A program made the position numbers and the translations under genes. This document shows positions 50,521 to 53,009 of a stretch of 64,000 nucleotides of DNA, in pieces. The stretch is taken from the NCBI GenBank assembly GCA_023251755.1, contig JAHEYF010000016.1, forward strand, positions 1 to 64,000, read 5' to 3'. Positions within the stretch are counted from its first letter, which is position 1. Each line of letters starts with the position of its first letter. The notes beneath the pieces were generated by a model, which saw only the letters and a program-made list of their open reading frames with translations, did no database searches and was not told the DNA's origin. The DNA is from Bacteroidota bacterium. GTDB taxonomy: Bacteria > Bacteroidota > Bacteroidia > B-17B0 > Aurantibacillaceae.

Positions 50521-50624
50521 AAATGGTTAAAACCATTTGTAGCACAAACGCATTACTGCATAGCCCGTGGTTTAAACCACGGGCTATGCAACACAAGCTA
50601 AACACGAAACCGTTTTAACGGTTT
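50521..50624 (+). repeat. Left A-B-C palindrome cassette
   Basis: A: AAATGGTTAAAACCATTT. B: a perfect 32-bp palindrome with TAGCCCGTGG/CCACGGGCTA arms. C: AAACCGTTTTAACGGTTT. Spacers of about 20 bases separate them. Confidence 0.9.
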
Positions 50625-50638
50625 AAAAATACAAGCTC

Positions 50639-51094
50639 ATGCCACATTCCTATAATAAAATATGGCTGCACGTGGTTTTTGCAACCAAAGAAAGATTCCC
50701 CTTAATTAAACCTGTTATTGAAAAACAACTGTATGAACATATACGAGAGCAGTTAGTTGAAAGTGGTTGCCCTGTCCGCATCATCAATGGTATGCCCGAT
50801 CATGTTCATTTATTGTTTTTACAAAACCCGAAAATGTCCGTAACAGATATAATAAAACAAGTGAAAGGAAATACTTCGCATTGGGTAAATTCCCAACATA
50901 TAATTGCCGAAAAATTTGCCTGGCAACAGGGTTATTCGGCTTTCTCTGTAAGCGAATCACAATTGGAACGGGTTTTTCATTACATCCAGAATCAAAAAGA
51001 ACATCATTCAAAAAAAACATTCGCACAGGAGTATGCTGATTTTATTGCCGCTCATGGTTTAACGGCTGTTGTTGAAAATAAGGCACGATATTGA
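50639..51094 (+). CDS. REP-associated (IS200-like, Y1) tyrosine transposase
   Basis: The 151-residue HUH transposase shows the metal-binding HxH in 'GMPDHVHLLFLQNP' and the catalytic Tyr in 'LERVFHYIQNQKEHHSKK', the typical RAYT signature. 'IWLHVVFATKERFPLI' opens the fold. The family cuts and joins single-stranded DNA at hairpin ends; RAYTs are thought to spread REP palindromes. The gene appears intact. Its ATG lies 14 bases after palindrome C, and its stop lies two bases before palindrome A of the right cassette. Confidence 0.95.
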   Translation: MPHSYNKIWLHVVFATKERFPLIKPVIEKQLYEHIREQLVESGCPVRIINGMPDHVHLLFLQNPKMSVTDIIKQVKGNTSHWVNSQHIIAEKFAWQQGYSAFSVSESQLERVFHYIQNQKEHHSKKTFAQEYADFIAAHGLTAVVENKARY

Positions 51095-51095
51095 A

Positions 51096-51202
51096 AAATG
51101 GTTGAAACCATTTCCACCATCAACATTCCCCATCATAGCCCCGGCTTTAAAACCGGGGCTATGTAGGCTGCACAATACAATCACGGAACCGTTTTAACGG
51201 TT
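51096..51202 (+). repeat. Right A-B-C palindrome cassette
   Basis: A: AAATGGTTGAAACCATTT. B: 30-bp palindrome with CATAGCCCCGG/CCGGGGCTATG arms. C: AACCGTTTTAACGGTT. B differs from the left copy in the arms, but its pairing is kept. C ends four bases before the uvrC stop and may serve as its 3' hairpin. Confidence 0.9.
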
Positions 51203-51206
51203 TTAT

Positions 51207-53009
51207 TTATTCATGATGAAAATACCCATACACCAGTTTAGCTTTTGCTTTACCAATAACAACAGCTAACTCTTCCTCGGTTTTTTCTTTGATGAGGTTC
51301 ACGGATTTTAATTCATTCAATAATTTTTGTGCCGTTATATCGCTGATGCCTTTTATTTCAGACAATTCGCTTTTAAATGTTTCGCGGCTGCGTTTATTGC
51401 GGTGGTGCGTGATTCCAAACCGGTGTGCTTCATCCCGGATGTGTTGTATAATTCTTAAAGTCTCCGAGCGCTTATCAATATACAGGGGCAGGGAATCGCC
51501 AGGGTAATAAATTTCTTCCAAACGTTTGGCTATACCTATTACAGCTACCTTTCCCATTAAGCCGAGTTTGTTCAGGCTGGTAATGGCCGCGTGCAATTGA
51601 CCCTTGCCCCCGTCAATTACAATCAGGTTGGGCAGGGGTAATTTTTCTTCCAGCACACGGGTGTAGCGTCTTAGTATTATTTCTTCCATGGTAGCAAAGT
51701 CATCCGGTCCTTCCACGGTTTTTACATTAAAATGCCTGTATTCTTTTTTTGCCGGTTTGCCGTCAATAAATACCGGCATGGCGCTAACGGCAAAGGCTCC
51801 CTGTATGTTTGAATTATCAAAGGCTTCAATGCGGCGGGGTTCTTCTTTCAGGCGCAGGTCTTTCATCATCTGCTCCATAATTCGTTTGGTGTGCCGTTCA
51901 GGGTCCACTAAGGAAATCTGTCTTTCCCGTTCCTTCTTATAGTTTTCGGCGTTGCGCAGCGACAGGTCAAGTAAATGTTTTTTATCGCCTATTTTCGGAA
52001 CAATTAGTTTGGCGTCTTTAAATTCGAAATCAATCTCAAAGGGTACCAGGATCTCGGTAGAGGCGGATTGAAAACGGTTGCGCAATTCGTTGATAGCGAA
52101 CACCAGCATTTCTTCATCGCTCTCTTCAATTTTTTTCTTCAATTCAACAGTGTGCCCTTGTACAATGGCCCCGTTCATTACTTTGAAAAAGTTGACGTAA
52201 GCAATGTCTTCGTTCGATACAATGGTAAAAACATCTACATTATTAATCGTTGAATTTACGACTGTACTTTTGCTCTGGTATTTTTCAAGGGTTTCAATTT
52301 TTTCCTTGATCAGCTGTGCTTTCTCAAACTCAAGGACTTCTACCCACGCACTCATTTTTTCTTTCAGCTCTTTTATAATCGAAACAAAATTTCCTTTCAG
52401 CAATGTTTTTATCTGCCTGATGTTTTCGTTGTATTCTTCTTCAAGCTGATTACCGGTGCAGGGCGCTTTGCACTTTCCGATATGAAAATCGAGGCAGGCC
52501 CTGAATTTTTGTTTATCAATATTCTGCTGGCTGAGTTCAAAGGAGCAGGTCCGCAAGGGGTACAATTGTTGAATAAGGTCAATCAAGGTATGCATCAGCT
52601 TAACCGAACCATAGGGGCCAAAATATTCCGAACCGTCTTTAATCATCCTTCGTGTAGGGAATACCCTCGGAAAACGTTCGCGTTTAATGCAAATCCAGGG
52701 ATAGGTTTTATCGTCCTTCAGCATTACATTGTAGCGGGGCTGGTACTTTTTAATCAGGTTGTTTTCCAGTAGTAAGGCATCCAGCTCAGTATCGACTACA
52801 ATGGTTTTAATGTCGGCTATTTTGCGGACCAATACACGGGTTTTGCTGTTGTCGTGTACTTTCGCGAAATAAGAAAGCACCCTTTTTTTAAGGTTTTTAG
52901 CCTTGCCTACGTATAAAATCTTACCCTCTGCATCGTAATACTGGTATACTCCCGGATTGTCGGGCAGGGTTTGAAGCAGTGATGATATATGGATAGATAA
53001 ATCGGCCAT
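51207..53009 (-). CDS. uvrC: Excinuclease ABC subunit C
   Basis: UvrC makes both incisions in nucleotide excision repair with UvrA and UvrB. The 600-residue length is standard. Domains in order are a GIY-YIG nuclease ('NPGVYQYYDAEGKILYVGKA', residues about 17-95), a UVR segment around 200-240 ('LEFEKAQLIKEKIETLEKYQ'), and the RNase H-like endonuclease with 'IEAFDNSNIQGAFAVSAM' and 'LIVIDGGKGQLHAAITSLN'. C-terminal helix-hairpin-helix motifs follow ('LSEIKGISDITAQKLLNELK'). It diverges from the DUF177-rpmF cluster. The RAYT element sits directly at its 3' end. Confidence 0.97.
   Translation of the reverse strand: MADLSIHISSLLQTLPDNPGVYQYYDAEGKILYVGKAKNLKKRVLSYFAKVHDNSKTRVLVRKIADIKTIVVDTELDALLLENNLIKKYQPRYNVMLKDDKTYPWICIKRERFPRVFPTRRMIKDGSEYFGPYGSVKLMHTLIDLIQQLYPLRTCSFELSQQNIDKQKFRACLDFHIGKCKAPCTGNQLEEEYNENIRQIKTLLKGNFVSIIKELKEKMSAWVEVLEFEKAQLIKEKIETLEKYQSKSTVVNSTINNVDVFTIVSNEDIAYVNFFKVMNGAIVQGHTVELKKKIEESDEEMLVFAINELRNRFQSASTEILVPFEIDFEFKDAKLIVPKIGDKKHLLDLSLRNAENYKKERERQISLVDPERHTKRIMEQMMKDLRLKEEPRRIEAFDNSNIQGAFAVSAMPVFIDGKPAKKEYRHFNVKTVEGPDDFATMEEIILRRYTRVLEEKLPLPNLIVIDGGKGQLHAAITSLNKLGLMGKVAVIGIAKRLEEIYYPGDSLPLYIDKRSETLRIIQHIRDEAHRFGITHHRNKRSRETFKSELSEIKGISDITAQKLLNELKSVNLIKEKTEEELAVVIGKAKAKLVYGYFHHE

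Follow-up and report, generated by a model that had tools for sequence, protein, structure and literature searches.

We identified what is probably a REPtron-like locus in the genome of a Bacteroidota bacterium (Aurantibacillaceae), in which a class-1 (IS200-like, subclass 1.2) Y1 transposase is accompanied by a cassette of three palindromes, A-B-C, that is its own predicted DNA substrate. The locus lies in a 64,000-nt stretch of contig JAHEYF010000016.1, referred to here as the window. The whole unit is 683 bases long, with the 3' end of uvrC on one side of it and, on the other, a TonB-dependent receptor gene that faces it with its 5' side. It contains the following features.

50521..50538, + strand: palindrome A, loop AA, AAATGGTTAAAACCATTT (also written AAATGGTTRAAACCATTT)
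50557..50590, + strand: palindrome B, a perfect 34-nt palindrome with ATAG...CTAT feet, TGCATAGCCCGTGGTTTAAACCACGGGCTATGCA
50607..50624, + strand: palindrome C, loop TT, polarity inverted relative to A, AAACCGTTTTAACGGTTT
50639..51094, + strand: Y1/HUH transposase gene, an intact 151-codon ORF, subclass 1.2 by signature
51096..51113, + strand: palindrome A', loop GA, AAATGGTTGAAACCATTT
51134..51163, + strand: palindrome B', one pair broken, CATAGCCCCGGCTTTAAAACCGGGGCTATG
51187..51202 (repeat to 51203), + strand: palindrome C', AACCGTTTTAACGGTT

The 5' cassette (50521-50624) and the 3' cassette (51096-51203) both ran in the order A-B-C and in the same orientation. The original prediction that the palindromes stand in the same order on both sides of an intact transposase gene was thus confirmed from the sequence coordinates. 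The tnp start codon followed palindrome C after 14 nt; uvrC, on the minus strand, ended at 51207-51209, and C' ended 4 nt from its stop. B was a 30-34 nt palindrome with ATAG and CTAT at its borders. Changes in B had been claimed to keep pairing; two pairs were indeed compensated between B and B', but one pair (11-18) was broken. The proposed insertion between uvrC and the TonB receptor gene held as a description of position only, since the relatives searched included no same-genus genome in which an empty site might be seen. In the window a GTAG follows A; we rejected it as a REP foot, since GTAG was not conserved beside A, B or C, a lack that also counts against the REPtron-like reading.

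The transposase matched Pfam PF01797 (Y1_Tnp) at 6e-29. It passed the NCBIfam IS200 model NF033573 (80.6 bits, cut-off 55), whereas it failed the RAYT equivalog NF047646 (32.4 bits, cut-off 80). Its predicted structure (mean pLDDT 80) best matched the TnpA of ISDra2/IS608 (E about 1e-8), and the match to TnpA-REP 4er8 was weaker (E 1e-4). The HUH residues H55 and H57, within DHVH at 54-57, and Tyr115 were invariant among 21 aligned sequences; the protein therefore combines a Y1_Tnp domain with HUH and a catalytic Tyr, as expected of an IS200/IS605 TnpA-like enzyme. The tyrosine motif, YIQNQKEHH, conforms to Y---Q--HH, the hallmark of TnpA-Y1 subclass 1.2; this signature was present in 19 of the 21 members of the enzyme clade described below and in all 32 other relatives. 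Quentin et al. (2018, PMC6006769) describe the subclass as low-copy, found mostly in Cyanobacteria and Bacteroidetes, and in general lacking secondary structures at its ends. The flanking hairpins carried no conserved GT[AG]G foot as in RAYT systems, the foot of B being ATAG/CTAT. Thus, the RAYT label given earlier is the right neighbourhood for the enzyme and the wrong class.

To relate the cassette to the enzyme, relatives at 52-74% identity were gathered by a search on the protein that was blind to the palindromes. Fixed patterns for A/B/C-type hairpins, applied within 350-400 nt of the gene, gave matches at 20 of 21 transposases with at least 50% identity and at none of the 32 below that level. 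The sole negative (L052) had a long, diverged B-like palindrome. In a tree of 51 proteins, this clade formed one side of a branch (support 77/83). Its members came from Flammeovirgaceae, Saprospiraceae, Sphingobacteriaceae, Flavobacteriaceae and Crocinitomicaceae; because the cassette-bearing clade spans these families, the pairing of cassette and enzyme has persisted while the proteins diverged by 25-47%. Complete A-B-C units, with 61-87 nt from A to C, occurred at no fewer than nine other loci, L040, L045, L046 and L054 being among the loci with A-B-C. Cassettes were present on both sides of the gene in the window and in L046, B-C stood on both sides in L044, and L051 had B-C upstream and A-B downstream. 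Many relatives retained just B, A-B or B-C, which counts against our preferred explanation. The nearest relative (L040 in G123, 74% identity) had an in-frame stop in its transposase and a complete 5' cassette. Taken together, the contrast of 20/21 with 0/32 loci bore out the view that a composite palindrome unit is paired with its own enzyme and kept across Bacteroidota. It also departs from "no typical flanking secondary structures", a trait that belongs to the 2018 description of subclass 1.2 and not to its catalytic definition.

We then analysed the folding of the cassettes as single-stranded DNA. The 5' cassette folded into exactly three hairpins (z = about -7.7 to -7.8) and did so on either strand, the minimum for the minus strand including a further weak hairpin. 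Like it, the 3' cassette folded better than 200 of 200 shuffles (z about -5.1 to -5.2); in its minimum-energy fold B' and C' were formed, and A' was replaced by an alternative pairing. Of 13 cassettes, 12 had AA or GA as the A loop, a polarity partly preset by the A...C search pattern, several cassettes having come via the protein alone. The C loop was TT or TC, likewise in 12 of 13, and was never preset by any search pattern. The stems of A and C differed by compensated pairs, so that C amounts to A inverted, two of its stem pairs being changed. The cassette, like a REPIN, therefore contains the same type of hairpin twice, once in each orientation (loop RA in A, loop TY in C), and this opposite loop polarity makes it a near-symmetric inverted, REPIN-like unit centred on the double-foot B. 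Among 17 distinct B sequences, two-sided changes occurred at 6 of 12 pairs; 96% of cells paired, compared with 24-39% in slid controls, and the 23 double-sided changed cells were equalled in none of 500 shuffles. Perfect symmetry of B could also be produced by hairpin-templated mutation (quasi-palindrome correction), and covariation alone is thus no proof of selection.

Cassettes also occurred apart from the transposase. Searched across 395 Bacteroidia genomes, the A...C pattern gave seven matches in five genomes and its reversed control none; the B...C pattern gave 14 matches in eight genomes, again with no control matches. Solo cassettes with no transposase nearby were present at L059, L061 and L086, and at L060, L063 and L078 the first codons of the transposase gene remained after C. 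Two genomes (G118 and G298) had cassettes and no clade member, the best identity being 38-40%. A tandem array at L046:2819-3856 read ABC-tnp-ABC-tnp(deleted)-AB; its second gene copy was internally deleted, with the N-terminal part and the last codons kept. These results indicated that other A-B-C units, including solo units outside the gene, do exist in relatives, so that the outcome named as refuting the original prediction, a lack of further A-B-C units in the genome or relatives, did not arise. A dispersed BIME family was not seen in the own genome: A and C occurred at the window locus only, one extra B-like hairpin lay elsewhere, and the pattern search found no second A-B-C locus there. 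The many dispersed host copies of cognate REPs that characterize RAYT systems were accordingly missing from this genome, which encoded one clade member. The extra hairpin, ATAGCCCCGGTTAAATTTCCGGGGCTAT (L092, C26:85078-85105), stood without A or C next to a murF-like gene. Viral contigs contained no A-C cassette, and phage and plasmid records yielded distant transposase relatives only (<60% identity).

The locus most likely works like a REPtron built from an IS200-class enzyme and a three-hairpin unit. Each cassette, once single-stranded, could fold into three hairpins, of which A and C are the same kind of hairpin with opposed polarity and different pairs in the stem, and B is a symmetric double-foot palindrome whose feet are ATAG/CTAT and not the usual GTAG/CTAC. 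With A and C in opposite polarity around a symmetric B, the unit is strand-symmetric like a REPIN, and on either strand the enzyme would encounter B and then a hairpin with a T-pyrimidine loop. It would most likely bind the hairpins, nick nearby single-stranded DNA via Tyr115 and rejoin the ends. A transposase gene between two same-orientation cassettes would then be moved or lost, and solo cassettes and deletion derivatives would be the products left behind. For the window enzyme, it is binding, cleavage, strand choice and mobility that we infer; since its own genome has no second cassette locus, no mobility is visible there, which weighs against our reading.

The locus shares with the REPtrons of RAYT (TnpA-REP) a single-copy Y1 gene amid palindromes, pairs of hairpins in inverted orientation, solo copies in relatives and tandem units. 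It differs from them in having a class-1 instead of a class-2 enzyme, ATAG instead of GTAG feet, and three palindromes in a fixed order that are not in high copy in the own genome. With TnpA-Y1 subclass 1.2 (PMC6006769) it has in common Y---Q--HH, DH[IV]H, WQ, a length of about 148-151 aa, low copy and occurrence in Bacteroidota; that subclass was described as having generally no terminal structures and no REP, whereas hairpin cassettes were the rule here. Subclass 2.4 double-foot REPs are likewise symmetric palindromes footed on both sides, but belong to another enzyme class, and here the foot is ATAG/CTAT and B is flanked by the A and C hairpins. Quentin et al. (PMC6006769) suggested that a double-foot REP could result when an inverted REP dimer loses its centre by deletion. 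TIRtrons/TIRYT (PMC3733652) also have Y1 genes between non-GTAG repeats that are found away from the gene; their repeats are long terminal inverted repeats, in contrast to the same-order direct cassettes here.

An ordinary IS200-type insertion sequence would explain the cassettes as its left and right ends; 50521-51203 would move whole, and solo cassettes would be excision scars or decayed copies. The protein and its fold are nearest to IS200/IS605 TnpA, the catalytic domain fold is shared with IS608/ISDra2, hairpin-bound single-strand chemistry would be expected here as well, and same-orientation cassettes on both sides are as expected of LE/RE hairpins. We nevertheless consider this explanation unlikely. 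The unit is single copy in its genome and showed no multi-copy IS behaviour, in several relatives (L040 and L054) the sole cassette lies 5' of the gene, and the two window cassettes differ in their inter-hairpin spacers while A and C are near-identical. In addition, the ends of IS200-type elements have small subterminal hairpins at LE and RE (PMC6006769), as do those of IS608/ISDra2, not ordered arrays of three palindromes per side. It is quite improbable, too, that the palindromes are regulatory and not substrates, acting as terminators or insulators that shield the gene and its neighbours from read-through. C' (51185-51204), adjoining the 3' end of uvrC, did have a weak terminator-like score on the + strand, and C is close to the start codon; however, a terminator scan showed no terminator-like site at A or B, termination has no need of the loop polarity and the stem identity conserved for A versus C, and solo cassettes are found both at a distance from the gene and in genomes that lack the clade.

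The cassette could also be a repeat spread by the host or carried by a MITE, in which case another transposase would move it and its link with the gene would be historical hitchhiking. Genome G089 had several cassette copies inside a unit of ~250-276 bp with ~34-bp terminal inverted repeats. For one of these (L136), the orthologous site was empty in G045, and the same short intergenic region was present in G268 and G292; this sole clean empty site belongs to the larger inverted-repeat element of G089, not to a window-type unit. Because the same terminal repeats also enclosed other contents without A-B-C (L141, L142 and L200), the cassette is cargo in this element, and its movement need not be caused by the cassette's enzyme. 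The unit without A-B-C and the many dispersed B palindromes in G302 fit the hitchhiking account, but the terminal inverted repeat was confined to one genus in our data and the cassette tracks the enzyme clade across the phylum, which leaves this account with hardly any probability. The repeat at L136, L137, L141 and L142 (G089) and L200 (G242) read GACCTTSAAGGTTTTxxAAAACAGGGGTGTCCGAAA, and the interior of these short elements held A-B-C or other REP-like hairpins. Another G089 locus, L061, was rejected as an empty-site case, since sister genomes hold about 1.5 kb between the flanking genes. The dispersed B-type palindromes (L150-L169 in G302 and G279) read AGCCCACGGTTnnAACCGTGGGCT, and several adjoined fragments that resemble a tyrosine recombinase C terminus.

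Hairpins also occurred near other transposases with the Y---Q--HH signature. Around the 32 genes outside the clade, hairpin density was 4.6 per kb within about 300 nt, about tenfold above the 0.47 per kb of distant flanks, and shuffled sequence gave 0.48. At least one hairpin was present at 26 of these 32 loci, and hairpin types varied from clade to clade. This suggests that hairpin substrates may be general in subclass 1.2 and were missed by a GTAG-based search. Five of the 32 were further subclass-1.2 transposases of the own genome (L002-L006, on C69, C140, C112, C49 and C14; 36-41% identity), four of which had hairpins such as AACCCCGAAGGGGTT or CGACTCCGGAGGAGTCG nearby; TAGAAA-type tags were also seen at four of the five.

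If the REPtron-like reading is extended, subclass 1.2 might be a third type of system for single-strand transposition, intermediate between IS200 and RAYT, a proposal that we put forward as possible but doubtful. The end, the target and the non-autonomous unit would then be one strand-symmetric three-hairpin cassette, and cutting two cassettes would swap the gene in or out and leave a solo cassette. The 2018 classification placed subclass 1.2 near the IS200 transposases, without ends or REPs; A, B and C now provide candidate substrates for it. These candidate hairpins come with a known polarity and are directly testable, and strand-symmetric double-foot palindromes between inverted hairpins lend themselves naturally to testing how REPIN-like units originate.
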